A stretch of DNA of 33,388 nucleotides. Source: an uncultured Lachnospiraceae bacterium (lineage in GTDB: Bacteria > Bacillota > Clostridia > Lachnospirales > Lachnospiraceae). The DNA lies in contig CANQVH010000040.1 of assembly GCA_947627245.1 (NCBI GenBank), positions 1-33,388 on the forward strand, in the 5' to 3' direction. The notes beneath the pieces are model-generated. The model had not been told where the DNA came from. It searched no databases and saw only the letters and a list, made by a program, of their open reading frames with translations. A program made the position numbers and the translations under genes. This document shows positions 214 to 28,497 of the stretch, one piece after another. How positions within the stretch are numbered: position 1 is the stretch's first letter; each line of letters opens with the position of its first letter.

Positions 214-342
214 ATGAAAAGGCTTTTGATGCTCGGCGGTTCCATGCAGCAGATATTAGCGATAAAGAGAGCCCGTGAGTTGGGAAATTATGTAATAAGG
301 GTTGATGAAGTATGGTTGGGAAATGTGACAGAAAAGACCTAA
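214..342 (+). pseudogene. Truncated ATP-grasp protein, N-terminal remnant
   Basis: A good ribosome site (AAAGAGGAG, about 195-204) precedes ATG 214. The 42-residue product begins MKRLLMLGGSMQQILAIKRA, the dinucleotide-like first beta-alpha unit of carbamoyl-phosphate-synthase-type ATP-grasp ligases, which are normally about 400 residues. After roughly residue 26 the sequence no longer looks like the family and it stops at 340-342. The next gene starts inside it at 312. I infer a deletion or recombination scar near 285-310 that removed almost the whole ligase. It could conceivably be translated as a leader peptide, but nothing supports a function. Confidence 0.6.
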
Positions 343-974
343 TATATGTTCGGTACATAAAACGGGTATTAGATATTGTAATTGCTTTGGTGGTTCTTGT
401 GATTATGTCTCCGGTTAATTTGGTTTTGGCAGTATGTACATATTTTGACGTCGGTTGGCCAATTCTTTTTCATCAAGAGCGTACTGGAAAGGATGGCATG
501 GTGTTTCAGATTATAAAATTTCGAAACATGACGAATGAAACGGATGAAAAAGGTAATTTGCTGCCTCCTGAGCAACGAGTGACAAAGTTTGGCCGGTTTG
601 TTCGGAGCACATCATTGGATGAACTGTTGAACTTTTGGTGTATTTTGAAAGGCGACATGTCTCTTATTGGACCAAGACCTTTGCTTACGATATATTTGCC
701 GCGCTATACGGAAAGACAGAGATTGCGGTTAAAAGTAAAACCGGGATTAGAATGTCCGTCAATAAAAGATAGAGGGCATTTACGTAGTTGGGAAGAACAG
801 TTTGAGGATGATGTATGGTATGTGGAGCATATTTCTTTTCTGACGGACTGCAGAATGTTTCTCCGGTTAATCCAAATGGTATTTAACAAGAATGATGCTG
901 AAAGACGCGGAAAAGCGGAAAGATCAGAATTTTTGGGGACAAAAGACAGTGATAAAGGCGCAGGGATGGGATGA
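312..974 (+). CDS. Phosphoglycosyl transferase (PglC/EpsL-like sugar transferase)
   Basis: This 220-residue monotopic phosphoglycosyl transferase would load the first sugar-1-phosphate from a UDP-sugar onto undecaprenyl phosphate and so start the repeat unit. One hydrophobic re-entrant segment lies at residues 18-40. The catalytic Asp-Glu pair sits in TSLDELLNFW, followed by LKGDMSLIGPRPLL. The C-terminal WEEQFEDDVWYVEHISF block is PglC-like. The usual PGITG.AQVNGR motif is replaced by PGLECPSIKDR, which is unusual. The start overlaps the truncated ATP-grasp frame by 31 bp and its ribosome site is weak, so the N-terminus may be shifted. Its position at the head of the cluster fits the initiating enzyme. 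Confidence 0.85.
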   Translation: MVGKCDRKDLIYVRYIKRVLDIVIALVVLVIMSPVNLVLAVCTYFDVGWPILFHQERTGKDGMVFQIIKFRNMTNETDEKGNLLPPEQRVTKFGRFVRSTSLDELLNFWCILKGDMSLIGPRPLLTIYLPRYTERQRLRLKVKPGLECPSIKDRGHLRSWEEQFEDDVWYVEHISFLTDCRMFLRLIQMVFNKNDAERRGKAERSEFLGTKDSDKGAGMG

Positions 975-2508
975 TAAGTATTTTGACATATTAAAGGCAA
1001 AACGGGAATGTGCCAAAAGTGGCGGGGGAGAAAAACGAATTCTTCGACAGCATGAAGCTGGTAAACTGACGGCACGGGAACGGATTGAGCAATTGATGGA
1101 CGAGGACTCCTTTGCAGAAATTGATATTTTTTTGGAGTCACAGTCACACTTCTTAGGAATGGATAAGAAGAAACAGGTTGGGGATGGTGTCATAACCGGA
1201 TATGGTAGGATTAACGGTCGTCCAGTCTGTGTTGCGGCGCAGGATTTCACGGTTATGGGAGGTACGTTGGGAAAATGCCATGCTAAAAAAATCTGCAATA
1301 TAATGGATATGGCCTATCGGATGCGTGTGCCGATTATTTTTCTTAATGATAGCGGAGGAGCCAGGATAGAAGAGGGAATTGATTCTTTGGCTGGATACAG
1401 CGGAATATTTTACCGTAACACTTTGTATTCTGGAGTAATTCCACAAATTGCGGTTATTTTAGGTCCATGTGCGGGCGGCGCTTGCTATTCCCCTGCTATT
1501 TGTGACTATGTAATTATGTCGCGCAACACGAGTAAAATGTTTATTACGGGACCTGCAGTCGTAAAGGCAGTAATTGGAGAAAATATTACTCCAGAGGGAC
1601 TTGGTGGAGCGGATTTACATATGGAAAGGAGTGGAGTAGCACATTTTGTTTATGAGGATGATACAATTGCGCTTGAAGGTGTAAAAAAGTTGCTGAGTTA
1701 TCTGCCTCAAAATAACGGTGAAAAGCCGGAATGGAGAGAAACTGTAGCGGTAGATAAAAGCGAGGAGTTAGAGTATTTAGTTCCAGACAATGGACGCAAG
1801 GTATATGATGTACGAAATGTTTTGATGACGTTTGTAGATAAAGGAACGTTTATGGAAGTACAAAACGGTTATGCTTTGAATATTGTGGTTGGGTTTGCTC
1901 GTCTAGATGGAGAAGTGATTGGTGTTGTGGCAAATCAGCCAATGCATATGGCAGGGTCTTTAGATAGCAATTCATCAGAAAAAGCGGCTAGGTTCATACG
2001 AACCTGTGACTGTTACAATATTCCAATTATAACGCTGGTAGATGTGCCGGGATTTTTACCAGGAAGAGAGCAGGAACACGGAGGAATTATACGAAGAGGT
2101 GCAAAATTGCTATATGCATTTTCAGAGGCATCAGTTCCAAAGATTACTTTGATTCTTAGAAAAGCATATGGAGGTGCGTATATTGCAATGAATAGTAAAG
2201 GAATAGGAGCAGATCGTGTATTTGCTTGGCCTATTGCGCAGTTAGCGGTTATGGGAGCGGAAGGAGCTGTAGATATTGTTTTTAAAAAAGAAATAGAAGC
2301 TTCGGATACGCCGGAAAAATTTCGTAAAGAAAAAATTAAGGAATATGAAGATAAATTTATGAACCCATATTTGGCTGCAGAAAAAGGTTATGTGGATGAA
2401 GTGATTTTGCCGGGAGAGACTAGACAACGCTTGAGTCAGACATTGAAAATGTTCCGTACAAAAAAGAAAGTTCAGCAAGAAAAAGCACATGGAAATATTC
2501 CGCTTTAA
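949..2508 (+). CDS. Acyl-CoA carboxylase carboxyltransferase subunit (PccB/MmdA family)
   Basis: The protein has both crotonase-type halves of a biotin-dependent carboxyltransferase. Seen here (GTG start numbering) are SGGARIEEG near 135, the oxyanion-type GPCAGGACYSPA near 172, FITGP near 198, GLGGADLH near 217, DVPGFLPG near 365 and RKAYGGAY near 404. Starting at GTG 949 gives 519 residues, the usual family length. The frame is open back to ATG 892 but that would overlap the upstream gene by 83 bp. The family makes malonyl- or methylmalonyl-CoA or works in sodium-pump decarboxylases. No biotin carboxylase, biotin carrier or membrane subunit lies in the window, so partners must be elsewhere. 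In context it probably supplies the carboxylated extender for the FabD that follows. Confidence 0.85.
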   Translation: MIKAQGWDDKYFDILKAKRECAKSGGGEKRILRQHEAGKLTARERIEQLMDEDSFAEIDIFLESQSHFLGMDKKKQVGDGVITGYGRINGRPVCVAAQDFTVMGGTLGKCHAKKICNIMDMAYRMRVPIIFLNDSGGARIEEGIDSLAGYSGIFYRNTLYSGVIPQIAVILGPCAGGACYSPAICDYVIMSRNTSKMFITGPAVVKAVIGENITPEGLGGADLHMERSGVAHFVYEDDTIALEGVKKLLSYLPQNNGEKPEWRETVAVDKSEELEYLVPDNGRKVYDVRNVLMTFVDKGTFMEVQNGYALNIVVGFARLDGEVIGVVANQPMHMAGSLDSNSSEKAARFIRTCDCYNIPIITLVDVPGFLPGREQEHGGIIRRGAKLLYAFSEASVPKITLILRKAYGGAYIAMNSKGIGADRVFAWPIAQLAVMGAEGAVDIVFKKEIEASDTPEKFRKEKIKEYEDKFMNPYLAAEKGYVDEVILPGETRQRLSQTLKMFRTKKKVQQEKAHGNIPL

Positions 2509-2519
2509 AGGGGGATGAA

Positions 2520-3173
2520 ATGAAAAAGATTGTTCTATTCGGTGCGGGTGGGTTTGGACGAGAAGTGGCATATTTAATTGAAAGAATTAATATGTTTCAA
2601 AAACCGACTTATGAATTATTGGGATTTCTGGTAGAAAAAAAGTTTTTAAAATCTGGGATGAAGGTAAATGGATATCCTGTATTGGGAGATGAGCAGTGGT
2701 TGTATGAACATCCAGATGTTGTTTGCACTTGTACAATAGCAGATGTAGATGCGAAAGCGAGAATTCAAACTACTCTGATGGAAAAAGGAGTAATTTTTGA
2801 GACAATTATTGCGCCTGGAGTGAGAATTGCTCCTAAATATACGACAATAGGTGTTGGATGCGTAATTTATTCAGATGTGGGAATATCTGTGAATGTAAAT
2901 ATTGGGGATGGTGTTTTGCTTAATGCAGGAGTGGCAATAGGACATGAAACTAACATAGGAAAATATACAAGTATTATGCCGGGTACGCGAATCAGCGGAC
3001 GTTGTCAAATAGGAGAACAAGTATCCATAGGGGGACATTCGTTCATTGTACCAAGAAAAAAGATTGGAGATCATGCAGTAGTTGCGGCGGGAAGCGTAGT
3101 GTTTTCTAATGTAAAGTCCCGAACAACTGTACTTGGAAATCCGGCAAAAAGGATGCGTATGCTGGAGGAATGA
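2520..3173 (+). CDS. NeuD/PglD-family sugar O/N-acyltransferase (left-handed beta-helix)
   Basis: AAAGGGGGATG just upstream provides the ribosome site for ATG 2520. The 217-residue product has an N-terminal Rossmann-like half starting KKIVLFGAGGFGREVAYLI, then a hexapeptide-repeat half (from about residue 95: IAPKYTTIG, NIGDGVLLN, NIGKYTSIMPG, QIGEQVSIGG, KIGDHAVVAAGSVV) and the family ending LGNPAKRM. These are the marks of NeuD/PglD acetyltransferases that use acetyl-CoA to acetylate sialic-acid-like or bacillosamine-type sugars in the cytosol. Here, inside an ACP/ketosynthase cassette, it may instead transfer a non-acetyl acyl group. That is inference. The catalytic His would be in GVAIGHETNIG (residues near 136-146). 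Confidence 0.85.
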   Translation: MKKIVLFGAGGFGREVAYLIERINMFQKPTYELLGFLVEKKFLKSGMKVNGYPVLGDEQWLYEHPDVVCTCTIADVDAKARIQTTLMEKGVIFETIIAPGVRIAPKYTTIGVGCVIYSDVGISVNVNIGDGVLLNAGVAIGHETNIGKYTSIMPGTRISGRCQIGEQVSIGGHSFIVPRKKIGDHAVVAAGSVVFSNVKSRTTVLGNPAKRMRMLEE

Positions 3174-3177
3174 TAGT

Positions 3178-4119
3178 ATGAAAACAGCGTTTTTGTTTTC
3201 GGGGCAGGGAGCGCAATATCCAGGAATGTTTCAGGATTTGTATGATAGTGATCCGGAAGTGAAGCGCATTATGGAGTTTGCTGATAGAGTATTGGGACGG
3301 GATATTTCAAAATTATGTTTTGAAGGGTCTCAACATGATTTAAATCTTACACATAATACTCAGCCATGTGTTCTGGCGACTGATTTGGCGGCGGGCATGG
3401 CGTTGATCGAAAAAGGAATCAGGCCGGATGCAGTAGCTGGTTTTTCTTTAGGTGAATATGCTGCTCTTACTGTAGCAGGAGTAATATCGGCCCAGGATGT
3501 TTTTCCGCTTATACAAATGCGGGCTGACGCAATGCAGGAAGCCGTTTCTGTAGAAAAGGGAGCGATGGCGGCAGTTATAGGATGTACGGGAGAACAGGTA
3601 GAAGCTCTCTGTTCGCAGATTACAAATGATTATGTTATCGCTGCCAATTATAACAGTCCTATACAGACAGTAGTATCTGGAACTACATCTGGAGTGGATC
3701 GCTTGCTGGCTTTAGCTCAAGAAAAAGGAGTGCATTTTGTACGGCTGGCAGTTAGTGCTCCGTTTCATTGTAAATTGATGGAGCCAGCAGCGGACAAGCT
3801 GAGAAAAGACCTGGAGAAAATTACGTTTGTAGAATCCAAATTACCTGTCTATATGAATTATACCTCACATCCTCTTGAAAAAGCGATGGATGTACCGGAA
3901 TTATTGTATAAACAGGCATTTAGTCCGGTTTTATGGCGGCAGACGATAGAAAATATGTATAAGGATGGCATTGATACGTTTATTGAATGTGGACCAGGAA
4001 AGACCTTGTACGGTTTAGTTCGGAAAACATTGAAAATGGCAATGGTTTGTCATGTGGAGGACGTAAAGACGTTAAATGATACGTTGGAAAAGTTACAGGT
4101 GAGAAAAGAGAAGGAATAG
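3178..4119 (+). CDS. fabD: Malonyl-CoA-ACP transacylase (FabD family)
   Basis: ATG 3178 has a GGAGG site in the end of the preceding gene, and gives 313 residues, the normal FabD length. It moves malonyl (or a related carboxylated acyl) from CoA to an ACP Ser. Visible are GQGAQ at 9-13, the nucleophile motif GFSLGEY (Ser90, with Phe instead of the common His before it), IQMRADAM whose Arg115 normally binds the malonyl carboxylate, and APFHCKLM with catalytic His197. The retained Arg argues for a dicarboxylic acyl substrate. Being one gene after the carboxyltransferase-acyltransferase pair and near two ACPs, it looks like a dedicated copy rather than the housekeeping one. Confidence 0.9.
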   Translation: MKTAFLFSGQGAQYPGMFQDLYDSDPEVKRIMEFADRVLGRDISKLCFEGSQHDLNLTHNTQPCVLATDLAAGMALIEKGIRPDAVAGFSLGEYAALTVAGVISAQDVFPLIQMRADAMQEAVSVEKGAMAAVIGCTGEQVEALCSQITNDYVIAANYNSPIQTVVSGTTSGVDRLLALAQEKGVHFVRLAVSAPFHCKLMEPAADKLRKDLEKITFVESKLPVYMNYTSHPLEKAMDVPELLYKQAFSPVLWRQTIENMYKDGIDTFIECGPGKTLYGLVRKTLKMAMVCHVEDVKTLNDTLEKLQVRKEKE

Positions 4120-4121
4120 AC

Positions 4122-4886
4122 ATGCGAAATTTAATTGATTTGTCAGAAAAGAAAATTTTAGTAGTGGGTGCTTCTTCAGGTATTGGAAAACAGACTGCAA
4201 TCTTGTTAAGCCAAGTAGGAGCTCAGTTGATTCTGGTGGCTCGACGGGAGGAAAAATTGAAGGAGACTTATCAGACTTTGGAAGGCAAGGGACATAGCTT
4301 TTATAGTGCAGATATAAATGAGATAGATCGAATAGAATCTTTGATAAAAAAAATAGTAGAGGAACAGGGAAAGCTGGATGGAATGGTGTATGCTGCAGGA
4401 ATTGGTACGAGTGTACCATTAATACAGTTTAGTCCGGATAAAGTTCAAAAAATATTTGATACTAATTTTTTTGGTTTTATGGAAACTGTACGGCAAGTGA
4501 GCAGAAGAGGAAGATTTAACGAGAAAATGCGTATTGTCGGGATTTCTTCAATTGCATCTTTGGTAGGAGATAAGGCACATACGGTTTATTCGGCATCTAA
4601 AGCAGCGATGGATGGAGCGGTTCGTTGTATGGCAAAAGAGTTAGCAGATAAGGGTATTTGTATTAATACAGTAGCACCGGCAATGACTGAAACGGAAATG
4701 TATTTCCGGTATTTGGGTAAATACGGGACTGACAGTGAAAGCAATATGGATCTGTTGAAACGGCAATACCTGGGAATAGCAAAAACGGAAGATATTGCGA
4801 ATGCCATCGTGTTTTTACTAAGCCCGGCAGCCAGATTTATTACAGGCGTTACTTTGCCGGTAGATGGCGGTACTACCAGTAGCTAA
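4122..4886 (+). CDS. SDR-family ketoreductase, FabG-like (SDR 1)
   Basis: This classical short-chain dehydrogenase/reductase has 254 residues and starts 2 bp after fabD. Seen: the cofactor motif VVGASSGIG (14-22), with VARRE at the end of beta-2 suggesting NADPH; YAAGIG (90-95) in place of NNAG; catalytic Ser143 (GISSIAS), Tyr156 and Lys160 (YSASK); and the C-terminal FITGVTLPVDGG typical of FabG. Likely role: reduction of a beta-ketoacyl-ACP made by the FabH-like enzyme downstream, at the cytosolic face. It is more distant from SDR 2 and SDR 3 than those two are from each other. Confidence 0.85.
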   Translation: MRNLIDLSEKKILVVGASSGIGKQTAILLSQVGAQLILVARREEKLKETYQTLEGKGHSFYSADINEIDRIESLIKKIVEEQGKLDGMVYAAGIGTSVPLIQFSPDKVQKIFDTNFFGFMETVRQVSRRGRFNEKMRIVGISSIASLVGDKAHTVYSASKAAMDGAVRCMAKELADKGICINTVAPAMTETEMYFRYLGKYGTDSESNMDLLKRQYLGIAKTEDIANAIVFLLSPAARFITGVTLPVDGGTTSS

Positions 4887-5008
4887 TAAGTACAAGGGAA
4901 ATGAAAAACTTGATATTACCGGAATAGCTCTAGTCACTTCAAAGATGACAGGTATAAAAGGAAGATAAGAGTACTGATTTTTAATAGGTATCATTCCTAA
5001 ATAATATC

Positions 5009-5038
5009 TTGCAGTTGATAATTTCGGACGAGTATTTT
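5009..5038 (+). promoter_or_regulatory. Weak candidate sigma-A promoter upstream of first ACP gene
   Basis: TTGCAG (5009-5014) and TATTTT (5033-5038) are 18 bp apart within the 216-bp gap 4887-5102, the largest gap inside the biosynthetic cassette. The match is poor at the -10, so this is only a possibility. Nothing else recognisable is in the gap. Confidence 0.2.
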
Positions 5039-5102
5039 GAAAATGGCTATCTGGATGAAAAATAAAATCCATAAGCATATAAAAATTAAGGAGGGCAGTG
5101 AA

Positions 5103-5324
5103 ATGACAGAAAATGAAAAGCTGGCATTGCTGGAAGAAACAATGGAATTAGATGAAGGTACATTAACTGAGAAAATGCTCTTGGAAGATATAGAAGAATA
5201 TGATTCCATGGCAAAATTGTCTCTGATTGTAATGATGGAGGATGAGTTTGGAGTAAAACTTGATAGTGATACTGTGAGAGGTTTTAAAACGGTAGAGGAC
5301 ATTTTGAAGAAAATGGAGGACTGA
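5103..5324 (+). CDS. Acyl carrier protein (ACP 1)
   Basis: The 73-residue acidic helical protein has the phosphopantetheine attachment motif EYDSMAKLS with Ser35, followed by an acidic helix II/III region (MMEDEFGVKLD). An excellent ribosome site AAGGAGGG (about 5089-5096) sets ATG 5103; the frame is open further upstream but that part has no family resemblance. The N-terminal half has a long acidic helix typical of stand-alone ACPs. A 4'-phosphopantetheinyl transferase must act in trans. It would carry the intermediates of FabD, the FabH-like ketosynthase and SDR 1. Confidence 0.88.
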   Translation: MTENEKLALLEETMELDEGTLTEKMLLEDIEEYDSMAKLSLIVMMEDEFGVKLDSDTVRGFKTVEDILKKMED

Positions 5325-5325
5325 A

Positions 5326-5562
5326 ATGACAAATCGAGATAAGTATATAAATGCGTTTATAAATTCTTTTGGAGTGGCAGCAGATGTGGTTCCTAACTTG
5401 AAATATCAAGGAATACCGGATTGGGACAGCGTGGGACATATGAATCTAATCGCGGAGATAGAGGATGCTTTTGATATTATGATTGAGACAGATGATATTA
5501 TCGATTGGAACTCATTTGAGAAAGGCATTGAATTGTTAAAGAAATATGATATTGAAGTTTAA
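5326..5562 (+). CDS. Acyl carrier protein (ACP 2)
   Basis: This 78-residue protein begins 1 bp after the stop of ACP 1, so the two are translationally coupled. Its attachment motif is DWDSVGHMNL with Ser35. The surroundings differ strongly from ACP 1 (Trp-Asp-Ser-Val-Gly-His against Tyr-Asp-Ser-Met-Ala-Lys), which resembles carrier proteins that pair with AMP-forming ligases or with acyltransferases. The tandem of dissimilar carriers suggests two separately loaded acyl pools, for example extender and starter. That division of labour is inferred. Confidence 0.85.
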   Translation: MTNRDKYINAFINSFGVAADVVPNLKYQGIPDWDSVGHMNLIAEIEDAFDIMIETDDIIDWNSFEKGIELLKKYDIEV

Positions 5563-5579
5563 AAAGAGCGGAGTAATAT

Positions 5580-6677
5580 ATGCCAAATTATATGTTTCGT
5601 AATATGCGGATTGCCGGCGTAGCGGCAGCGGCCCCATCCGCGATTGTTGTAAATCGAGATTATGAGCCGCTTCTGGGGAAAAGCCTGGTTGACCGGGTCA
5701 TAAGTGTTACCGGAATTGAACAGTATCACAAGTCAGCTCGCTGTCAGACTGCTAGCGATCTGGCTTATGTAGCTGCAGAAAAATTGCTGAGTGAAAAAAA
5801 TGTCGACCGGTCGGAAATCGGAGCCATCATTGATGTGACAGAATCGCCGGATTATATCGCGCCTTCGACAGCTTTTGTATTGCATAAACGTTTAAAGCTG
5901 CCTCAGACCTGTATGGCGTTTGATGTAAATTTGGGATGCACAGGTTATGTGTATGGTATCCATATTGCATGTTCTCTTTTACAGGCCATGACGCAGAAAT
6001 ATGTGCTTTTGGTTGTGGGAGATGTGATGAAAAGACCGGAAATGGCGAATCGCAGGAATCCGGATCACTCTTATTTAATGATGTTTGGAGATGCATCTAC
6101 GGTAACTTTGATTGAAAAAACAGAGACATCAGAAACAATTGAAACAGATCTCTATGCGGATGGTACAGATTTTAAAATGCTGTATACAATGGGACGGTGC
6201 CGATGCCCGGATGCGCCCCATGATGTTACGGTCTGGAGCGATGGATTAGAGCGATCGTTGTATGATCCTTATATGGACGGGATGGGTGTGTTTGTTTTTT
6301 CCACCACGTATGCGCCGAAGACAGTCAAAGATTTTCTGAAAAAACGTGGAGAAAGTCTGGAACAATATGATGGTTTTTATTTCCATCAGGCAAATAAAAT
6401 GATTGTGGATAGGATTGCAAGATGCCTTAAAATTGATATGGAAAAAGTTCCTCTTTCTCTTCCAAGGTATGGAAATACCAATTGTGGTTCTATACCGGTG
6501 ACGATAGTGGATCATTTGGGAGATATGCATTCAAACATTCCTCAGAAGCTGTTGCTTTGCGGATATGGAATAGGCCTTTCGTGGGGTTGTGTTTCTTTGT
6601 CGCTTTGTCCGGATGCGGTACTGCCGATGGAATTTAGTGATGAATATTATGCGGAGGGAGAAATTCATCCATTATAG
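5580..6677 (+). CDS. Beta-ketoacyl-ACP synthase III family protein (FabH-like)
   Basis: At 365 residues it is a little longer than FabH (about 320). The full catalytic triad is present: Cys120 in NLGCTGYVYG, His269 in FHQANKMI and Asn299 in YGNTNCGSIP. KAS III enzymes condense an acyl-CoA starter with malonyl-ACP, so one round would give a beta-ketoacyl-ACP. No FabF-type elongating synthase, dehydratase or enoyl reductase follows, so a single condensation is likely. The ribosome site AGCGGAG is about 9 bp before ATG 5580. FabH-like genes with ACPs are known from glycan loci such as flagellin glycosylation islands, where they make 3-hydroxyacyl substituents. Confidence 0.87.
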   Translation: MPNYMFRNMRIAGVAAAAPSAIVVNRDYEPLLGKSLVDRVISVTGIEQYHKSARCQTASDLAYVAAEKLLSEKNVDRSEIGAIIDVTESPDYIAPSTAFVLHKRLKLPQTCMAFDVNLGCTGYVYGIHIACSLLQAMTQKYVLLVVGDVMKRPEMANRRNPDHSYLMMFGDASTVTLIEKTETSETIETDLYADGTDFKMLYTMGRCRCPDAPHDVTVWSDGLERSLYDPYMDGMGVFVFSTTYAPKTVKDFLKKRGESLEQYDGFYFHQANKMIVDRIARCLKIDMEKVPLSLPRYGNTNCGSIPVTIVDHLGDMHSNIPQKLLLCGYGIGLSWGCVSLSLCPDAVLPMEFSDEYYAEGEIHPL

Positions 6678-6703
6678 ACTAAAGAATCGGAGATGGAGGA
6701 AGT

Positions 6704-7360
6704 ATGTATTCAATAACCGCTGTACATAATCCGCCAATAGATGAAGTGACGTATATTCTGTCAGAGGAAGGAAAAAGAGGCTGTTTGCTGATTGATCCAT
6801 ATGATATAAGCAGAATCGAAGTTAAAATTGGCGAGTTTGGGCGGCCTGAATGGCTTCTGCTTACTCATGAGCATTATGATCATATTGCCGCAGTAAATCA
6901 GTTGGTGGAAAAATATCATTGTAAAGTAGCGGCATCAAAGGTATGTGCTGAACAAATACAAGACCCCAGAAAAAATATGTCTGCATATTATGATGCGCTG
7001 ATGGAGTTGCACGACACAGCTTTGGAGAAACGGACACAGCTTTATTCGATAGATACTGTGAATTTTATGTTTGAGGGAAGTGCAGTTTTCCAATGGAAAG
7101 ATTTGACATTTGAATTGGTGGAAGTGAGAGGTCATTCCCCGGGCAGTATCTGTATACGATTTGAAAACAATGTTTTTACTGGGGATGTATTGCTGCGGGA
7201 TACCGAAGTTATTACCAGATTTCCCGGAGGAAGTAAAAAAGAATATTTAAAAATAACCAAGCCGTATCTTTTCAGCCTCCCACCGGATCTGCAGGTATAT
7301 CCGGGACATGGAGATCCGTTTGTCTTAGGTGAGAGCATATATTTGTATCCTAAGGAGTGA
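6704..7360 (+). CDS. Metallo-beta-lactamase-fold hydrolase (glyoxalase II-like), possible thioesterase
   Basis: The 218-residue protein carries a complete dimetal site: THEHYDH (His55, His57, Asp59, His60), GHSPGS (His144), FTGDVLL (Asp161) and YPGHGDP (His202). The GHSPGS and PGHGD motifs are those of glyoxalase II-like thioester hydrolases rather than beta-lactamases. In this setting it may release an acyl acid from ACP or CoA, giving a substrate for the LuxE-like or AMP-ligase proteins, or it may edit misloaded ACP. The substrate is not visible from sequence. The gene sits 26 bp after the ketosynthase with a GGAGG site. Confidence 0.82.
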   Translation: MYSITAVHNPPIDEVTYILSEEGKRGCLLIDPYDISRIEVKIGEFGRPEWLLLTHEHYDHIAAVNQLVEKYHCKVAASKVCAEQIQDPRKNMSAYYDALMELHDTALEKRTQLYSIDTVNFMFEGSAVFQWKDLTFELVEVRGHSPGSICIRFENNVFTGDVLLRDTEVITRFPGGSKKEYLKITKPYLFSLPPDLQVYPGHGDPFVLGESIYLYPKE

Positions 7361-7368
7361 GTGAAGTA

Positions 7369-8112
7369 ATGCATTTAAGAGAGAAAAATGCAGTTATAAC
7401 AGGCGCTAACAGGGGAATTGGACGCGCGATTGTGGAGAAATTCGCAAAGGAAGGGGCTTGTATCTGGGCATGTGCGCGCAAATATTCAGAACCTTTTGAA
7501 AAGGATATGAGCAAGCTCTCAGAACAGTATGGTGTTTGGATCCGTCCTGTATACTTTGATTTGAGAATTGAAAAAGAAATAAATGACGGCTGGAAACAGA
7601 TCATAAGTGAAAAGAAAACAATAGATATCTTGGTAAATAATGCGGGAATTGCGTCGGGGAGCTTGCTGACAATGACATCAATGGATACATTGAAGGAAGT
7701 TTTTGAGGTGAATTTTTTCTCACAAGTTCGGATGATACAAGTTGCAGCGAGAAAAATGATGCGACAAAAGAGCGGCTGCATTATCAATATGACTTCTGTG
7801 GGGGGAATGGAACACCGTCCGGGGTATCTGGCATATGGTTCCAGTAAGGCTGCCTTGATATGGGTTACGCGCATGGCGGCTAAGGAGTTAGGTTGTTATG
7901 GGATAAGGGTCAATGGAATTGCTCCGGCAATGGTGGATACAGATATGGGTCATTTTCGAAAAGAAACAGAAATGCAGAAAATAATAGCGGACACACCGCT
8001 GAGACGGCTGATTAGACCGTCAGAAGTGGCCGATGCAGCGGTGTTTCTTGCATCGGAAAATGCTTCTTTTATTACAGGAGAAATTCTTAGAGTGGATGGA
8101 GGAAGAGTGTGA
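7369..8112 (+). CDS. SDR-family oxidoreductase (SDR 2)
   Basis: AAGGAG (7352-7357) inside the end of the preceding gene serves ATG 7369 (GTG 7357 is an alternative). The product has 247 residues with TGANRGIG (11-18), WACAR after beta-2, NNAGIA (90-95), Ser143, Tyr156 and Lys160 (YGSSK), and ITGEILRVDGG near the end. It therefore has all catalytic residues of a classical NAD(P)H reductase. It lies immediately before the transketolase pair, overlapping it by 4 bp. Shared unusual segments (IWACxR, then G-Ile/Val-W-I-R-P-V before a DL) show close kinship with SDR 3 on the other side of the transketolase genes. Likely substrate: the ketol product or a sugar ketone. Confidence 0.86.
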   Translation: MHLREKNAVITGANRGIGRAIVEKFAKEGACIWACARKYSEPFEKDMSKLSEQYGVWIRPVYFDLRIEKEINDGWKQIISEKKTIDILVNNAGIASGSLLTMTSMDTLKEVFEVNFFSQVRMIQVAARKMMRQKSGCIINMTSVGGMEHRPGYLAYGSSKAALIWVTRMAAKELGCYGIRVNGIAPAMVDTDMGHFRKETEMQKIIADTPLRRLIRPSEVADAAVFLASENASFITGEILRVDGGRV

Positions 8113-8942
8113 TCAGTCAGGAGGATATTAATAAGTTAGTTGAGATTGCAAAAAAGATACGTCTGGAGGGGCTAGAAATGGCTCGCCATGCAGGAAAAGG
8201 TGGGGCACATTTTGGAGGAAGCTATTCTGCTGTTGAGATACTGGTAGCTCTTTATGGACATTCAGCCAGGTATAAAGCATCAGATCCGCTTTGGGAAGAT
8301 CGGGATCGGATTTTAATCAGTAAACGTCACTGTGTGCTCGCTTTGTATCCCGTTCTGTCTGAATTTGGTTTTTTTGAAAAGGACAAGTTGAATTCGTTTG
8401 TAGACGATGATGGGCTTCTTGCCTCTTATCCGGTAAATCCTTCTATTGGATTAGAGTATTCAGCAGGAACACTGGGAATGGCTCCGGCAGTTGCTATAGG
8501 CAGGGCGCTGGCAGCAAAAAGGGATGGAAGGGACTTTCGCGTATTTGTATTAGTTGGAGATGGAGAATGTAATGAGGGATCTATTTGGGAAGCATTTATG
8601 AGCGCTGCCCAGTTTAAATTGAATAACCTAACGTTGATATTGGATAATAACCGCCTTTGTTATGATGGATTGACTGCGGATGTAATGGGCTTAGGTGATT
8701 TGCCCCATATTATGGAAGGGTTTGGCTGGCAGGTGGATCATGTGAATGGACATGATATTGGTGCACTGTGTGGAGCGTTAGATTCTCCTGCATTGGATCG
8801 TCCACAGATTGTGATTGCAGATACGTTGAAAGGAAAGGGTATTTCATTTATGGAGCAGCAGTGTCAGTGGCATCACGGAGTTATTACGGATGAGCAGTAT
8901 GAATTGGCTAGGGAAGAAATTATGGAAGGATTAAAAATATGA
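8109..8942 (+). CDS. Transketolase, N-terminal (ThDP pyrophosphate-binding) subunit
   Basis: GTG 8109 overlaps the previous stop (GTGA) and follows GGAGGAAGAG. The 277-residue protein is the first half of a split transketolase. Visible are the active-site His34 in GGAHFGGSYSAVEI, the ThDP/Mg motif GDGECNEG (150-157) ending in LDNN (178-181), and DRDRILISKRH. Transketolase moves a two-carbon ketol from a ketose phosphate to an aldehyde, and the diphosphate end of ThDP binds here. Split transketolases occur in many bacteria. One placed between two SDR genes in a glycan cluster is more likely dedicated to an unusual sugar than to the pentose phosphate pathway, which is inference. Confidence 0.9.
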   Translation: MISQEDINKLVEIAKKIRLEGLEMARHAGKGGAHFGGSYSAVEILVALYGHSARYKASDPLWEDRDRILISKRHCVLALYPVLSEFGFFEKDKLNSFVDDDGLLASYPVNPSIGLEYSAGTLGMAPAVAIGRALAAKRDGRDFRVFVLVGDGECNEGSIWEAFMSAAQFKLNNLTLILDNNRLCYDGLTADVMGLGDLPHIMEGFGWQVDHVNGHDIGALCGALDSPALDRPQIVIADTLKGKGISFMEQQCQWHHGVITDEQYELAREEIMEGLKI

Positions 8943-9916
8943 AAAAAACGATAACTCCTGTTATGATACGAACTTTTGCCCACTTAGGGCAAAGAGGTAC
9001 ATTTTTTGGCGTTGCACTGATGGATATTGCCCGGGAGAGAAAAGATGTGACTGTCCTTACCGCAGATGTCCAGCAGTTATCGGCATTAAATAATTTTGCG
9101 GAAACATATAAAGAGCAGTTTTTAAATGTGGGTATTGCTGAGCAGAATATGATAGGAGTAGCGGCAGGACTCGCGGCAGAGGGAAAATGTGTTTTTGCTA
9201 CGACTTATGCGGAATTTATTGCTCTTAGGAGCGCAGAACAGGTTCGGCATAACCTGGCTTATCATCAGTATAATGTGAAAGTGGTAGGAGGAGCAGCAGG
9301 AGTGTTTTCTGCAAAATCAGGAGTTTCTCACTGGGCCTCAGAAGACATTGCGCTGATGAGATCTTTTCCGGGAATGATTGTTCTTTCTCCCGCAGATGCT
9401 TTTGAGGCAGCGAAGATGGCCTATGCTGCAGCAGAGAACCCATTGCCCATGTATATTCGGTTAAGCGGCGGTCCCTCCTGCCCTATGGTTTATAAGTCGG
9501 ATTATGACTTTGAAATTGGAAAGGCAGTGCTATTGAAAAAAGGATCGGATGTTGCGCTTGTTGCAACTGGGCTGATGGTACAGGAATGTATAAAAGCGGA
9601 AAAATTTTTATCAGAAGTGGGACTTTCCTGTTCCGTGATCAATATGCATACAATAAAACCGCTGGATACAAAGATGCTAGATGAGATATTTGAAAAGCAT
9701 AAATTGCTTGTAACTGTGGAAGAACATAATGTCGTCGGAGGTCTGGGAGGTGCGGTGGCAGAGTATAAAGCCGGGCTTTCTCATACACCGCCGCAGTTGT
9801 TCCTGGGAATCCATAGCTTTGACGGGGTCGGTTCACAGAGAAATGTGTGGAAAGCACAGGGAATTACGGCAGAGCAGATTGCAAAAACTGTAAAAGTATG
9901 GTGGGATAGGCTGTAG
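8939..9916 (+). CDS. Transketolase, C-terminal (pyrimidine-binding plus C-terminal domain) subunit
   Basis: ATG 8939 overlaps the N-terminal subunit stop (ATGA), so the halves are co-translated. It has 325 residues. The conserved glutamate that activates ThDP is Glu68 in FLNVGIAEQNM, preceded by TADVQQ and followed by FATTYAEFIALRSAEQVR. The C-terminal domain begins near 190 (GKAVLLKKGSDVALVATG) and ends VGSQRNVWKAQGITAEQI. It forms the active site at the interface with the N-terminal subunit. Acceptor specificity cannot be read; the LuxC-derived aldehyde encoded 4 kb downstream is an attractive candidate. Confidence 0.9.
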   Translation: MKKTITPVMIRTFAHLGQRGTFFGVALMDIARERKDVTVLTADVQQLSALNNFAETYKEQFLNVGIAEQNMIGVAAGLAAEGKCVFATTYAEFIALRSAEQVRHNLAYHQYNVKVVGGAAGVFSAKSGVSHWASEDIALMRSFPGMIVLSPADAFEAAKMAYAAAENPLPMYIRLSGGPSCPMVYKSDYDFEIGKAVLLKKGSDVALVATGLMVQECIKAEKFLSEVGLSCSVINMHTIKPLDTKMLDEIFEKHKLLVTVEEHNVVGGLGGAVAEYKAGLSHTPPQLFLGIHSFDGVGSQRNVWKAQGITAEQIAKTVKVWWDRL

Positions 9917-9943
9917 AATTTTGGTAAGTAGGAGGCAAAAATT

Positions 9944-10677
9944 GTGGGCAATATCGTACTGACAGGGGCGAGCCGGGGAATTGGCTTTGAAGCGCTACGA
10001 GAATTGGCTGGACAGGGGCATAATATCTGGGCCTGTGTTCGGACGATCAAGGAAGATTGGAGACAGCTTGTTAAACAGTGGGAAGATCAAAATGGAATCT
10101 GGATCAGACCAGTACTGTTGGACTTAGAAGATATGGAAAGCATAAAAAATGCAGCGCTCCAAATAATGCGGGGGGGGATTGCATAGATATTCTGATTAAT
10201 AACGCAGGAATATCAGATACAAAAACATTTATGATGACATCGCCGGATATGATGTCCAGGATATTTCAAGTGGATTTTTTTGCGGTGATTTTCTTTTCAC
10301 AGATGATTGCAAAAAAGATGATTCGCCAGAAAAAAGGAAATATTATTAATATTGCTTCTGTGCGTGGGTTAAAGCCAGAACCGGGTAATCTGGCATACGG
10401 AACCGCAAAATGTGCTCTTATATATGCTACAAAAGTTCTGGCGGAAGAATTAAAACCGTATGGTATCCGGGTAAACGCGATTGCACCGGGAGCGATTCAG
10501 ACGGAGATGATTTCTTATAAAAGCAGCGCAACAATTGATATGATTAAAGAAAAGAGCGCATTGGGAAGACTAGGGACAAAACAGGAAGTTGTAAAAGCGG
10601 TCAGATATCTGTGTGACGAGAATTCATCTGGAACTACAGGAGAGATACTGACGGTCAGTGGGGGATATTTTGACTGA
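9944..10677 (+). pseudogene. SDR-family oxidoreductase (SDR 3), frameshifted at a G8 tract
   Basis: A GTG start at 9944 follows TAGGAGGC. The first frame (9944-10186) gives TGASRGIG and WACVR, then ends just after eight consecutive G at 10170-10177. The second frame resumes exactly there with IDILINNAGIS and carries catalytic SVRG and YGTAK motifs to TGEILTVSGGYF and the stop at 10675-10677. Nine (or six) G would restore one SDR of about 245 residues. It is a close relative of SDR 2 and completes an SDR-transketolase-transketolase-SDR block. Both frames are otherwise undamaged, which favours a very recent slip, phase variation or a read error over a decayed gene. Confidence 0.85.
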
Positions 10678-10704
10678 CGAATAACGGCTAAAGAGGATTG
10701 GATA

Positions 10705-12123: not shown

Positions 12124-12150
12124 TATTTTGACGGATGGAGTTTGAACTTT

Positions 12151-12828
12151 ATGCCCATTGTAAATCGAAATAATATTATTTGTTATGTCCAGAATGGATT
12201 TATAGAAGAACCTGAAAAGCTACTGCAGATTGACTGCCGATTTGTGCAGTGTGAAGTGGCGGCAAATGAGATCCATGCTAAAAAGTGGCTGACAGAAAAT
12301 GGATTTTATTTTGTGGAGCGTTGGCTGGATGTATCCGTACCCATGCGAACATTGCCGGTGAGAGCCTTTAGAAAGCGATATGAAACAGAACTAGGACACG
12401 AGAATTTCTCTGTTTTGAAACGGATATATGAAGAGGCATTTACGGAAGACCGGCGGTTTCATTTGAGAATGGAATATGATCAGTCGCTGGCCAATCAGAT
12501 ATTGAAACAGTATATAAGTGATGCCATAGAACAGGATATGCCTCTTATTATTTGTAAATACAAAGGTGAAAGCATTGGATGTGCTTTTTTGCAAAAGACA
12601 GAAAAAGGTTATTTTGTTTTTCTGGCAGGTGTCAGGTCGGCTTATCAGGGAACAGGGGCAGCGGTTGAACTGTATCGGGCGGTGGCTGATTTTTGCAAGG
12701 AAGAGGGAGGTTCGATGCTGACTGGGAGGATAGCTGCATCTAATACGGGAGTAATGAATTTGTATGGAATGCTGAATGCATCTTATTATAATCCAAGGGA
12801 TCTTTATATACTTGACAGAGGGGAATGA
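12151..12828 (+). CDS. GNAT-family N-acyltransferase (WecD/FdtC-like)
   Basis: ATG 12151 is spaced correctly after GGATGGAG; an in-frame TTG at 12142 is too close. The 225-residue protein has a divergent N-terminal half and a C-terminal GNAT domain: GESIGCAFLQK (beta-4), then VRSAYQGTGAAVELY, which is the pyrophosphate-binding loop (Q-x-x-G-x-G/A), and GRIAASNTGVMNLY. The layout resembles WecD-type acetyltransferases that N-acetylate 4-amino-4,6-dideoxy sugars. It ends overlapping the LuxE-like start by 4 bp. Possible donors are acetyl-CoA or the cassette-made acyl group. No sugar aminotransferase of the DegT type is present in the window. Confidence 0.75.
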   Translation: MPIVNRNNIICYVQNGFIEEPEKLLQIDCRFVQCEVAANEIHAKKWLTENGFYFVERWLDVSVPMRTLPVRAFRKRYETELGHENFSVLKRIYEEAFTEDRRFHLRMEYDQSLANQILKQYISDAIEQDMPLIICKYKGESIGCAFLQKTEKGYFVFLAGVRSAYQGTGAAVELYRAVADFCKEEGGSMLTGRIAASNTGVMNLYGMLNASYYNPRDLYILDRGE

Positions 12829-13925
12829 AAATGATGGAGTTGGAAGATTTGTTAGCGATCCCTCCCTATTCACTGGAGAAGAAAGAAAAGGCGGAATGTC
12901 TGACCTGCCTGCTCAAACGGCTGACAGAGGGACACAGGGAGCGTTGTCCGGAATACAGGAAAATAACAGAAGCTCTGGGATATAACGAGAATGAAGTAAA
13001 AACCTTGGAGGATATTCCTTTTATTCCGGTCAGGCTGTTTAAAGAATATGATCTATACAGCTTGCCGAAAGAGCAGATATCTTTGACTATGACCAGCAGC
13101 GGTACAACAGGGCAGCAGGTAAGCCGGATTGCGCTGGATGCAGAAACATCCAGAAATCAAAAAAAGGTATTATCGCATATTATTACATCTTATATTGGAA
13201 AACATCGGTTGCCATTGCTGATATTAGATTCAAAAAAGACTTTGCGAGATCGCAGACTTTTCGGGGCTCGCGGTGCAGGTATTCTGGGATTCAGTATTTT
13301 GGGGCGAAATGTAGAATATGCGCTGGATGAGAATATGAATCTGGATTTTGATGCTGTGAATATGTTTCTGGAAAAGCATGAAGGGGAACAGAAGCTGTTA
13401 TTTGGCTATACATTTATGATATGGCAGCATGTGTACCTGCCTTTAAAGGAAAAGGGACAGAAGCTGGATTTTGGAGCAGAATCAACACTTTTTCATATTG
13501 GCGGCTGGAAAAAACTTAGGGATATTGCGGTGACAGATGCGGTGTATAAAGATGCGCTGCGGGAATCCTGCAATATCCATCGGATATATAATTATTATGG
13601 CATGGCAGAGCAGTTGGGATCCGTTTATGTGGAGTGTGAATACGGGCATATGCATGCAAGTGACTTTTCAGATATTATTATCCGGAATCCGTTGGATTTC
13701 TCCGCACAGCCTATCGGGAAGAAAGGGTTGATTGAGCTGGTTTCTACGATTCCCCGCTCTTATCCGGGACATGCTATCTTGACGGAAGACGAAGGGATCA
13801 TTCTTGGGGAGGATGATTGTCCGTGCGGAAGAAAGGGAAAATATTTTAAGATTCTGGGGCGTGTGAAAAATGCCGAGATCAGGGGGTGTAGTGATACTTA
13901 TGCAGATAGACTTTCAAAAAATTAA
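12825..13925 (+). CDS. LuxE-like acyl-protein synthetase
   Basis: The 366-residue product belongs to the LuxE/PaaK-like acyl-protein synthetase family, which activates a free acid with ATP and holds it on a C-terminal Cys before delivery to the LuxC reductase. Visible are SSGTTGQQ (91-98), YYGMAEQLGSVYVECEYG, DDCPCGRKGKYFKILGR and, 12 residues from the end, a Cys (355) in EIRGCSDTY that matches the position of the LuxE acyl-Cys. ATG 12825 overlaps the GNAT stop by 4 bp. The immediate downstream neighbour is the LuxC-like reductase, the same pairing as in lux operons, but no luxAB or luxD is present. Confidence 0.85.
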   Translation: MKMMELEDLLAIPPYSLEKKEKAECLTCLLKRLTEGHRERCPEYRKITEALGYNENEVKTLEDIPFIPVRLFKEYDLYSLPKEQISLTMTSSGTTGQQVSRIALDAETSRNQKKVLSHIITSYIGKHRLPLLILDSKKTLRDRRLFGARGAGILGFSILGRNVEYALDENMNLDFDAVNMFLEKHEGEQKLLFGYTFMIWQHVYLPLKEKGQKLDFGAESTLFHIGGWKKLRDIAVTDAVYKDALRESCNIHRIYNYYGMAEQLGSVYVECEYGHMHASDFSDIIIRNPLDFSAQPIGKKGLIELVSTIPRSYPGHAILTEDEGIILGEDDCPCGRKGKYFKILGRVKNAEIRGCSDTYADRLSKN

Positions 13926-15102
13926 AGTTATAAGCGGGGATCTGTGTGATTTTGACGCAATTCCATTGCCCCCTTTTGACGACCGGATATGCGCTTTTTT
14001 AAATAAACTGTCCGGAAAGTTGTTAAAATCACAGGAAGCGAAGCGATATCCAGATGTTGTTACATATGCCTTTTTCTGCCGAAAATCGAATCTGGTAAAA
14101 TTAAAAAATGCTTATAGAGAGCAGATTAGGTATCGGCTTGGACGTGGAATAACTTTCCATATAGCTCCAGGCAATGTGCCGATTAATTTTGCTTATACTT
14201 TGACGGTGGCGCTATTGGCAGGAAATGCCTGTGTTGTAAAGGCGAGCAGTAAAGAATTTCCCCAGACCAGGATTATTTCAGATGCTTTAAATGATCTGCT
14301 GGCTGGAAAAGAATTTGAAATATTAAGATCGTATATAAAGATTGTCGTTTACCCACGTGAAAATCAAGAAATAACAGATTTTTTCTCCTCAAAATGTAAT
14401 ATTCGCATTATCTGGGGAGGTGATCGGACGATTGATAACGTTCGCACAGGGAAAATCCCTCCCCGGTCATATGATATAACTTTTGCAGACCGGTATTCTC
14501 TTTGCGTGATGGATGCGCAGAGGATAAATGCGGAGCAGGATCTGTCTGGATTGGCTCATGATTTTTATAATGATACATATTTGTATGATCAAAATGCCTG
14601 TTCCTCTCCACGGATGATTTACTGGATTGGAAACCGGGAAAGTGGAAAAAGAGCACAGGCGAGATTCTGGGCTGCTGTGTATGAAGAAATTAAAAATCGC
14701 TATGACACGGATGCAGTAATAGCAGTAGATAAATATATGGCATTTTGCCGGGCGGCGATTGATTTAGGCTGCGTACACCTGGAAAAATCACCGGATAACC
14801 GTATTTTTCGAATTTCCTTAGATAATTTGACGGACACAATTCCTTATTATCGCTGTGCAGGAGGCAGTTATCTGGAATATATTTCAGAGGATTTGGAAGA
14901 TTTAAAGAAAATAGTGAATGAAAAGTATCAGACAGTAAGTTATTTTGGACTGAATCCGGAAGAGCTTAGAAATAGGGTTATAGAATATAATCTCCGGGGG
15001 ATTGACCGTATTGTGCCAGTTGGAAAGGCAGCGGATTTTAATCTGGTCTGGGATGGGTATGATCTGATTTTAATGATGTCCAGAGTTGTATCATTGGTAT
15101 GA
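13900..15102 (+). CDS. LuxC-like acyl-CoA/acyl-protein reductase
   Basis: ATG 13900, preceded by AGGGGG (13882-13887), gives 400 residues; the frame is open back to 13870. The family (aldehyde-dehydrogenase fold) uses NADPH to reduce a Cys-bound acyl group to a free aldehyde. Seen: ITFHIAPGNVPINF (84-97), VKASSKEFP, IRIIWGGDRTI, and the catalytic Cys234 in DQNACSSPRM, a motif that matches LuxC well. It overlaps the LuxE-like gene by 26 bp and closes the cassette. It would turn the acid held by the LuxE-like partner into an aldehyde, a suitable ketol acceptor for the transketolase. Confidence 0.87.
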   Translation: MQIDFQKIKVISGDLCDFDAIPLPPFDDRICAFLNKLSGKLLKSQEAKRYPDVVTYAFFCRKSNLVKLKNAYREQIRYRLGRGITFHIAPGNVPINFAYTLTVALLAGNACVVKASSKEFPQTRIISDALNDLLAGKEFEILRSYIKIVVYPRENQEITDFFSSKCNIRIIWGGDRTIDNVRTGKIPPRSYDITFADRYSLCVMDAQRINAEQDLSGLAHDFYNDTYLYDQNACSSPRMIYWIGNRESGKRAQARFWAAVYEEIKNRYDTDAVIAVDKYMAFCRAAIDLGCVHLEKSPDNRIFRISLDNLTDTIPYYRCAGGSYLEYISEDLEDLKKIVNEKYQTVSYFGLNPEELRNRVIEYNLRGIDRIVPVGKAADFNLVWDGYDLILMMSRVVSLV

Positions 15103-15200: not shown

Positions 15201-15315
15201 GTAGTGCATAGAAGGATTACATATATGAAGAGGGGCAGCATCCATTAGGGGCTGACATGGTTCTTTATGGTCACAGGAAAAACAGAGTATTATGGATTGT
15301 AAGGAGTCTAAGGGC

Positions 15316-16341: not shown

Positions 16342-16345
16342 GCAT

Positions 16346-17482: not shown

Positions 17483-17486
17483 GTAT

Positions 17487-20099: not shown

Positions 20100-20127
20100 A
20101 TATATTCATGCAGAAGGAGAATGGAAT

Positions 20128-28485: not shown

Positions 28486-28497
28486 ATCTCCACCCCC

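Follow-up and report, generated by a model that had tools for sequence, protein, structure and literature searches.

RfbN, a LuxE-domain protein of the tetronate gene set of Vibrio cholerae O1 (VC0248-VC0252), is described as serving the synthesis of 3-deoxy-L-glycero-tetronate, which acylates the 4-amino sugar perosamine, and the 471-residue WbeL is likewise described as necessary for tetronate (PMC3441752, PMC4772473). Moreover, the Group II flagellin islands of Aeromonas and the LuxE/LuxC islands of Enterobacteriaceae contain genes for an acyl carrier protein (ACP), a 3-oxoacyl-ACP reductase, an AMP-dependent synthetase, luxE, and luxC (PMC7874193; similar set in PMC4875605), which the authors of the former source read as fatty-acid synthesis genes. 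The same five genes, in the same order, form the core of a locus on the stretch of DNA analyzed here (the window), a contig of 33,388 nucleotides from an uncultured Lachnospiraceae bacterium (GCA_947627245.1, contig CANQVH010000040.1) that was taken whole from an assembly of 3.84 Mb in 151 contigs. In the window, this core is accompanied by the two halves of a split transketolase (TK), TktN and TktC, and by a set of fatty-acid synthesis (FAS) genes.

A sequence-only reading of this DNA had described a collinear cassette of a carboxyltransferase, FabD, a FabG-like short-chain dehydrogenase/reductase (SDR), two ACPs, a FabH-like ketosynthase, a metallo-beta-lactamase (MBL) hydrolase, LuxE, LuxC, a split TK, and two further SDRs, placed between an initiating sugar transferase and galE/glf/wzx. 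Pfam and NCBIfam families confirm this arrangement: all these genes are present, collinear and on the plus strand, flanked on the left by the sugar transferase and on the right by galE, glf, GT2, and wzx. Three genes were missing from that list, namely those for a PglD-like acyltransferase, an AMP-ligase, and a WecD-like GNAT. The genes had also been called mostly overlapping; the spacing within the dense operon at 892-15102 is operon-like, and five overlapping pairs are recorded, MBL/SDR2, SDR2/TktN, TktN/TktC, and GNAT/LuxE by 4 bases each and LuxE/LuxC by 56 bases. Lastly, the combination had been presented as undescribed, which holds for the TK insofar as, among the matches listed in the open-access literature, no paper was found that joins LuxE/LuxC with a transketolase, and does not hold for the five-gene core, whose gene set is known from flagellin islands and whose chemistry is known from the V. 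cholerae O1 tetronate proposal. What appears to be new is a putative non-canonical TK step, for which the sequences make a strong case.

Proposed pathway

The cassette is proposed to make a polyhydroxy acyl group and to hand it to an amino sugar of a surface glycan, a reading that we consider somewhat better than even (probability about 0.57). Specifically, LuxE would activate one carboxyl of a small acid, likely a C4 dicarboxylate such as malate, as an acyl-AMP and pass the acyl via cysteines to LuxC, which would reduce it to an aldehyde. The dedicated split TK would add two carbons to the non-phosphorylated aldehyde, as a ketol or, here, possibly as an acetyl from pyruvate, and SDR2 would reduce the newly formed ketone. 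The second carboxyl, untouched by LuxE, would be activated by the AMP-ligase and loaded on ACP2, and the WecD-like GNAT or the PglD-like acyltransferase would transfer the acyl to a 4-amino sugar before export by Wzx/Wzy. At this locus, FabD, ACP1, FabH, and SDR1, fed by the carboxyltransferase, would probably lengthen the chain by a malonate unit.

A broader formulation is put forward only tentatively: a dicarboxylate that is half-reduced, extended by TK, and hung on an ACP by its other end would give acid-ended "half-sugars" (3-deoxyaldonate-like acyls), a pyruvate-using TK with FabH malonate extension would here give a sugar-polyketide hybrid acyl, and the trihydroxyhexanoyl group on the flagellin of Treponema denticola would be accounted for in like manner. 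No description was found of this way of making glycan building blocks. Were the pathway correct, a TK subfamily of Clostridia and Rhizobium would act on LuxE/LuxC-derived aldehydes rather than in central metabolism and would provide natural counterparts to laboratory-evolved TK variants (positions 100, 469, and 520); the acyl groups of surface glycans would not be predictable from sugar nucleotide genes; unexplained acyl masses in flagellin and O-antigens would gain a gene-level route; and a testable pathway would replace the "fatty acid synthesis" reading of such flagellin-island genes.

Conservation of the module in other genomes

The loci compared come from a LuxC search of genome contigs (5 loci), a LuxC search in relatives (25 of 194 genomes matched, several weakly), and a LuxE family search across the order (141 of 393 genomes matched, mostly by short, weak matches). 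The neighborhoods of full-length matches and four named plasmid loci were taken, and 58 loci were tabulated; 39 belong to the LuxE clade, set at >=41% identity to the window LuxE over >=120 residues, and 19 lie outside it. The window is not counted among the 39, L029 duplicates L004 and was omitted, some genomes contribute two loci, and L084-L088 all come from one genus. Absences are soft because the stretches span 10 to 25 kb and many stop at contig ends.

LuxC is found at all 39 LuxE-clade loci, the AMP-ligase at 35, ACP2 at 33, and ACP2, AMP-ligase, LuxE, and LuxC together at 32; an SDR is present at 25, both TK halves at 16, a sugar aminotransferase at 11, and MBL at 4. L081, with TktC only, and L080, with a 45-residue piece of TktN only, are not among the 16, which include L042 although its TK, about 9 kb from LuxE, falls outside the TK clade. 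In the 19 loci of other LuxE families, TK halves are absent (0/19 versus 16/39; Fisher 5e-4), and one of them, L100 (LuxE 28%), still has ACP2, an SDR, and an AMP-ligase. The gene grouping is not accidental, as its recurrence at many loci in other genomes shows. The sequence-only reading had proposed co-occurrence as its check and would have been refuted by homologous loci in which the genes are never conserved together; this refutation fails, LuxE, LuxC, and split TK being conserved as a group. FabH and FabD, found at 2/39 and 1/39 loci, window apart, are outside the wide core of the module.

ACP, AMP-ligase, LuxE, and LuxC recur across five phyla, often with an SDR, and are joined by the split TK in Clostridia and Rhizobium. 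The set ACP2-SDR-AMP-LuxE-LuxC is found in Nonomuraea gerenzanensis, in Ponticoccus, with LuxC on the opposite strand, and in Deinococcus sp. NW-56, where it is flanked by genes for a sugar transferase and a PglD-like acetyltransferase. In Bacteroidota, LuxE of the window clade is seldom seen (4/345 genomes at E 1e-60, including the search center G503, chosen for having LuxE), and all four Bacteroidota loci (three fetched plus L006) contain ACP2, SDR, AMP-ligase, LuxE, and LuxC with no TK match; a module-type TK was not found in the G503 genome. Rhizobium anhuiense T24 carries TktN, TktC, a PglD-like acyltransferase, ACP, AMP-ligase, a glycosyltransferase, DegT, LuxE, LuxC, and an SDR, and on its plasmid (L155) the cluster holding the TK module also encodes DegT, FabZ, a methyltransferase, and a GMC oxidoreductase and is close to a siderophore receptor gene. 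TktC has matches in ten plasmid records at E 1e-55, nine from Rhizobium and one from Fusobacterium; LuxE occurs in 10 Rhizobium records, which include all nine. The LuxC search in phages gave no match.

Variant loci were also observed. A second ACP2-AMP-LuxE-LuxC set of the window's own genome (L003 85-4078, contig C2) lies beside MptE-like and Wzy-like proteins, with no TK match within the 20 kb read. At L040, L041, L043, and L084, the ACP/AMP/LuxE/LuxC genes stand beside HpaB-superfamily proteins (two of four checked), and L084 adds a thiolase, a 3-hydroxyacyl-CoA dehydrogenase, MaoC, a CoA-transferase, and LarA; loci of this type perhaps represent a fermentation-like use of the reductase with succinate as the substrate. 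Two LuxE-LuxC pairs and/or two TK pairs are present at L005, L032, L033, L076, and L079. At L074, a LuxE of lower similarity (36%) is accompanied by two ACPs, FabH, FabD, an SDR, an AMP-ligase, and a carboxyltransferase, another FAS-plus-Lux combination.

The split transketolase subfamily

TktN and TktC were aligned with Escherichia coli TktA, whose numbering is used here. The window TK retains the thiamine diphosphate (ThDP)/Mg and catalytic residues H26, H66, D155, N185, H261, E411, and H473; Glu411 and His473 are kept in 23/23 module TktC, and the module TktN of L039 has Asn for Asp155. His461 and Asp469, which we take to contact the sugar phosphate and the alpha-hydroxyaldehyde, respectively, are each kept in 0/23 module TktC, with Ala and Ser in the window, and the Arg520 stretch differs too, as judged by eye. 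Among 13 split TKs fetched as a housekeeping set for comparison, 11 keep both residues; L145 and L150 have neither, and they form the sister group of the module TktC clade. That clade unites 20 of 21 module TktC, Rhizobium included, with support 96/94 in a tree built without L193 and L194; the outlier is L042. The window TK was rejected as a housekeeping enzyme, another split TK being encoded on contig C4 of the same genome.

Position 100 is His in 13, Tyr in 5 (the window among them), and Glu in 1 of the 19 module TktN and is His in 12 and Glu in 1 of the 13 other TktN; of the two TktN of L005, one has Tyr and the other His. Neither half reaches the DXS cut-off (TktC 167 of 466 bits; TktN 43 bits), an enzyme in which the His100 equivalent is reported to be Phe (PMC7661550). 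In PMC10787763, the D469T variant of E. coli TK is called propanal-accepting, D469T combined with R520Q and S385Y takes formylbenzoic acid, and the H100L and D469T changes together enable the use of pyruvate as the donor. Because the sugar-phosphate and hydroxyaldehyde contacts are lost and matching engineered variants exist, the acceptor of the module TK is probably a plain, non-phosphorylated aldehyde, and because Tyr replaces His100, the C2 donor in the window's subgroup may be pyruvate, which would give a methyl ketone instead of a ketol.

In the converse search, the same 393 order genomes were searched for subfamily TktC, judged by score and by a match start within query residues 1-11, with E up to 1e-60. 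At least 13 were found, 11 of which adjoin LuxE/LuxC; a second TktC of G172 fell just outside. Among the matches listed, the subfamily TK is present in 10 of 19 LuxE-clade genomes, a number counted by hand, versus 2 of 374 others (Fisher 3e-13, a test that, like the one above, ignores relatedness). One of the two TKs that stand apart from Lux genes, L194, has SDR2-TktN-TktC-ACP2 with a DltB-like MBOAT (118 bits, below cut-off) and an AMP-ligase and would, by analogy, follow D-alanylation logic with an exotic acyl; at the other, L193, an AMP-ligase is fused to a carrier, and a protein resembling penicillin acyltransferase is encoded as well.

Associated reductases

An SDR accompanies both TK halves at 13 of 16 loci. 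In a tree of 34 SDR2-like proteins and SDR1, 21 rows form a clade (96/92) drawn entirely from TK-gene loci, and the other 13 come from loci without TK, where the labels were assigned by locus after the tree was seen and L080 and L081, with one TK half each, are within the 21. A label preset as TK within 2.5 kb requires 5 changes on the tree, compared with a shuffled mean of about 12 and 0 of 500 shuffles as low. The SDRs of L035 and L038, which belong to the window's genus and are without TK, group with the Bacteroidota L006 and not with the window, and the SDR type therefore seems to follow chemistry, not taxonomy. One kind of SDR would reduce the aldehyde itself and the other the TK product. 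SDR3 was rejected as a required step, its gene being broken and not seen in the sister locus.

Evidence for an acyl product

The LuxE and LuxC cysteines of the window have counterparts in the solved structure of the LuxC-LuxE complex, 7xc6 (aligned chains 7xc6_E and 7xc6_A, respectively), which are presumably the acyl-bearing ones, and are conserved in 42/42 LuxE and 41/41 LuxC clade matches. The conversion of an acid to an aldehyde by LuxE/LuxC and its extension by two carbons by TK, both put forward by the sequence-only reading, are supported, the former by these cysteines and the latter by the changed substrate contacts, the TK clade, and the accompanying SDR. On this evidence, the order acid, aldehyde, C2 extension, and reduction can be considered well supported. 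Lys461 of the AMP-ligase is kept in 33 of 34 clade matches, the remaining one having no coverage there, and this enzyme probably loads an acid on ACP2. The product most likely retains a carboxyl group and serves as an acyl substituent, rather than as a sugar, because the AMP-ligase and ACP2 are frequent companions of LuxE/LuxC and the Pfam scan found neither a kinase nor a nucleotidyltransferase among the cassette genes.

Since the carboxyl loaded on the ACP cannot be the one made into an aldehyde, the most economical assumption is that the pathway starts from a dicarboxylate. Two TK modules (L034, L039) encode a lactate/malate-type dehydrogenase, and such a gene also lies near L086. The L034/L039 enzyme has Arg, as in malate dehydrogenases, at what we take to be the classical specificity position, the sole pointer to malate, and a 2-hydroxy acid, lactate or malate alike, is indicated. 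With regard to the acceptor, L007 combines WecE (above cut-off) and a protein 25% identical to the window GNAT with an AMP-ligase in two frames, LuxE, LuxC, an SDR, and an ACP.

Several points weigh against the proposed pathway. Every substrate, the order of the steps, and the acceptor are inferred, whereas gene set, catalytic residues, TK and SDR clades, and conservation are read directly from the sequences. A single acid could be the substrate of both LuxE and the AMP-ligase, the L034/L039 dehydrogenase passes the NCBIfam cut-off for L-lactate dehydrogenase, and a sugar aminotransferase was not found within the window, whose left end is the contig end. In addition to the relatedness ignored by the Fisher tests, 2 of the 13 subfamily TKs (L193, L194) have no LuxE/LuxC in the fetched stretches, and 9 of the 19 LuxE-clade genomes have no TK at the threshold used, five of the nine being one genus. 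Moreover, the preset TK label would ideally change once on the SDR tree and not five times, and no SDR match is seen at three of the loci with both TK halves (L039, L042, L076).

Alternative explanations

The end product favored by the sequence-only reading was a six-carbon dideoxy-ketosugar: FabH and SDR would make a 3-hydroxybutyryl group, MBL would free it, LuxE/LuxC would convert it to 3-hydroxybutanal, and ketol transfer by TK would give a 4,6-dideoxy-ketohexose-like sugar of the glycan. The locus holds enzymes for every step up to the ketose, a TK devoid of sugar-phosphate contacts suits a plain aldehyde acceptor, and the cassette, FAS genes included, is syntenic in the sister species. 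However, the kinase or nucleotidyltransferase that sugar activation would call for was not found among the cassette genes (elsewhere, L077 has a nucleotidyltransferase directly after TktC, and such a route may apply there), the partners of LuxE/LuxC are AMP-ligase and ACP far more often than FabH, and Tyr occupies the donor contact His100 in the window TK, leaving this product unsupported and the route improbable. It is very improbable that the lux/TK genes branch a sugar by moving a C2 unit onto a keto-sugar nucleotide, with separate acyl genes that provide only a substituent. ThDP enzymes such as YerE can branch sugars, and TK loci often lie among sugar genes; nevertheless, the TK travels with LuxE, LuxC, ACP, and AMP-ligase, L194 shows a DltB-like acylation set, and LuxE/LuxC would be left unexplained.

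Two independent acyl systems whose chains are never joined are unlikely but deserve consideration, namely a FAS-type hydroxyacyl made by carboxyltransferase, FabD, FabH, SDR1, and ACP1, and a polyhydroxy acyl made by LuxE/LuxC/TK with ACP2, AMP-ligase, and SDR2, each with its own acyltransferase (PglD-like and GNAT). The presence of two ACPs and two acyltransferases agrees with such a division, as does the absence of FabH from 14 of 16 loci with both TK halves, while the interleaving of the FAS part with the TK module argues for a joint product. This mix occurs in three genomes of one genus, interleaved each time (the window; L004/L157; L039/L159), and in the third (G008, L039) FabD lies between LuxE and LuxC. 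A lipid product has the least to recommend it: Lux genes that yield long-chain fatty aldehydes or the lipid part of a glycan would agree with their homology to the LuxE/LuxC of luminous bacteria and with the "liposugar" proposed for flagellin islands in PMC4875605 and PMC7874193, but the long-chain LuxE/LuxC equivalog scores are far below cut-off (66 of 550 and 68 of 750 bits), FabH is rare at the loci, and a TK partner is hard to explain with fatty aldehydes. Bioluminescence was rejected as a role of the lux genes, no Pfam match to luciferase (luxAB) being present among the 30 window proteins scanned, up to 29784.

Gene inventory and flanking regions

The genes of the locus are listed in Table 1, together with their identity to the sister species (L004/L157), which has the same cassette order, no SDR3 seen, a second PglD-like gene (34%), and an extra FabH (36%); its FabD and carboxyltransferase lie just outside the counted stretch (L157). 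Identity is lower for the TK halves than for most of the neighboring genes, as if the halves had been swapped.

Table 1. Genes of the window with coordinates, supporting evidence, and percent identity to the sister species
Feature	Position	Strand	Evidence	Identity to sister
Bac_transf, initiating sugar-phosphate transferase	312..974	+	PF02397 E 1e-48	
Carboxyltransferase (PccB/MmdA-like)	892..2508	+	PF01039 E 5e-186; TIGR01117 742 bits, below cut-off 999	63%
PglD/NeuD-like sugar acyltransferase	2520..3173	+	TIGR03570 162.6 bits, above cut-off 160.8	63%
FabD malonyl transferase	3178..4119	+	TIGR00128 278.8 bits, above cut-off; start 3178 picked from translation	65%
SDR1, FabG-like	4122..4886	+	PF13561	48-51%
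ACP1	5103..5324	+	PF00550; DS motif; start picked from translation	69%
ACP2, core-module carrier	5326..5562	+	No Pfam match; NCBIfam ACP 24 bits, below cut-off; homologues in 33/39 LuxE-clade loci	85%
FabH-like ketosynthase III	5580..6677	+	PF08541/PF08545; Cys120/His269/Asn301	83%
MBL hydrolase	6704..7360	+	PF00753	64%
SDR2	7357..8112	+	Member of TK-associated reductase clade (tree)	72%
TktN, ThDP-binding half of split TK	8109..8942	+	PF00456; Tyr at E. coli His100	42%
TktC, pyrimidine/C-terminal half of split TK	8939..9916	+	PF02779/PF02780; Ala at E. coli His461, Ser at Asp469	49%
SDR3, broken	9944..10677	+	N- and C-terminal parts in two frames, parting near G8 run 10170-10177	
AMP-ligase, 472 aa	10705..12123	+	PF00501 E 9e-39	72%
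GNAT, WecD-like N-acyltransferase	12142..12828	+	PF00583; PRK10975 E 1.5e-8, below cut-off	68%
LuxE-like acyl-protein synthetase	12825..13925	+	PF04443 E 3e-49; acyl-acceptor Cys355	77%
LuxC-like acyl reductase	13870..15102	+	PF05893 E 3e-31; catalytic Cys244	64%
Glycan assembly genes: galE, glf, GT2, wzx, two Wzy-like, SDR epimerase/decarboxylase-like	15292..23786	+		

The carboxyltransferase likely supplies malonyl- or methylmalonyl-CoA, the MBL hydrolase is a probable thioesterase, and the FabH-like residues sit in what we take to be the usual ketosynthase motifs. This FabH is the only one found in the metagenome-assembled genome at E 1e-10.

Besides the G8 run that parts SDR3, poly-G runs are present at 22642-22650 (G9), 25155-25161 (G7), and 26301-26306 (G6); a membrane acyltransferase gene (25317-26324) ends near the last, where a hydrophobic stretch is found in another frame. 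The breaks reflect phase variation or sequencing error, and poly-A phase variation is reported for V. cholerae wbeL in PMC3441752. The epimerase/decarboxylase-like SDR and a UDP-glucose dehydrogenase (22848-25065) have a GC content of 0.53-0.55 versus about 0.40 for the locus, and this stretch is of mosaic origin. DctP and DctM TRAP transporter genes lie 3' of the glycan locus on the minus strand (27406-29784). At the left end, the translation of positions 1-311 reads as the final part of a class I aminotransferase followed by the short beginning of an ATP-grasp-like protein. Contigs C56 and C98 of the same assembly end in a DegT gene and, read from the translation, a class I aminotransferase start; the locus may continue on them. 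No 25-mers are common to the window ends and the fetched loci, and the tRNA and Rfam scans of the window gave no match.

Comparison with known systems

The features of a tetronate-type module are found in the window, namely a LuxE with the acyl-acceptor Cys, a LuxC with the catalytic Cys, a dedicated ACP, and an AMP-ligase of about 471 residues. In V. cholerae, tetronate synthesis employs an iron alcohol dehydrogenase as the last reductase, which has no Pfam match in the window cassette, where SDRs are in its place. The LuxE-domain protein is common to both, and WbeL, presumably an AMP-ligase, resembles the window enzyme in length (471 versus 472 residues). Unlike the window, the V. cholerae O1 set comes without mention of a TK in the available parts of PMC3441752 and PMC4772473, and for the flagellin islands the word "transketolase" occurs 0 times in the text at hand of PMC7874193.

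With the LuxC-LuxE fatty acid reductase (7xc6), the window shares the protein families and both cysteines and differs in the absence of luciferase from the scanned genes and in the partners, which are ACP, AMP-ligase, SDR, and TK. The best solved match for both TK halves is the split TK of Carboxydothermus hydrogenoformans (6yak), described as taking glycolaldehyde and bulky non-sugar aldehydes with hydroxypyruvate (PMC7661550). At the equivalents of positions 461 and 469, 6yak has the His and Asp that the window TK lacks.

The flagellin glycan of T. denticola reportedly bears a 2-methoxy-4,5,6-trihydroxyhexanoyl group and has a mass of 450.2. Malate semialdehyde with C2 ketol addition, reduction, and O-methylation would yield this acyl, with a computed mass of 450.18; in the same arithmetic, a dihydroxybutyryl group plus C2H4O2 (the TK ketol) and a methyl equals 2-methoxy-4,5,6-trihydroxyhexanoyl. 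A dihydroxybutyryl residue is computed at 102.03 and, replacing one acetyl of Pse5Ac7Ac, gives 376.15; for A. piscicola AH-3, PMC7874193 describes a pseudaminic derivative of 376.14 Da and a moiety of 102 Da that is left unexplained, and the island group of this strain carries genes for an ACP, a reductase, and an AMP synthetase together with luxE and luxC. These agreements are best regarded as coincidences worth testing, not as proof. With its AMP-ligase, ACP, and acyltransferases, the window system would be an elaboration, with a candidate TK step, of the LuxE-LuxC type represented by V. cholerae O1 tetronate and Aeromonas flagellin.

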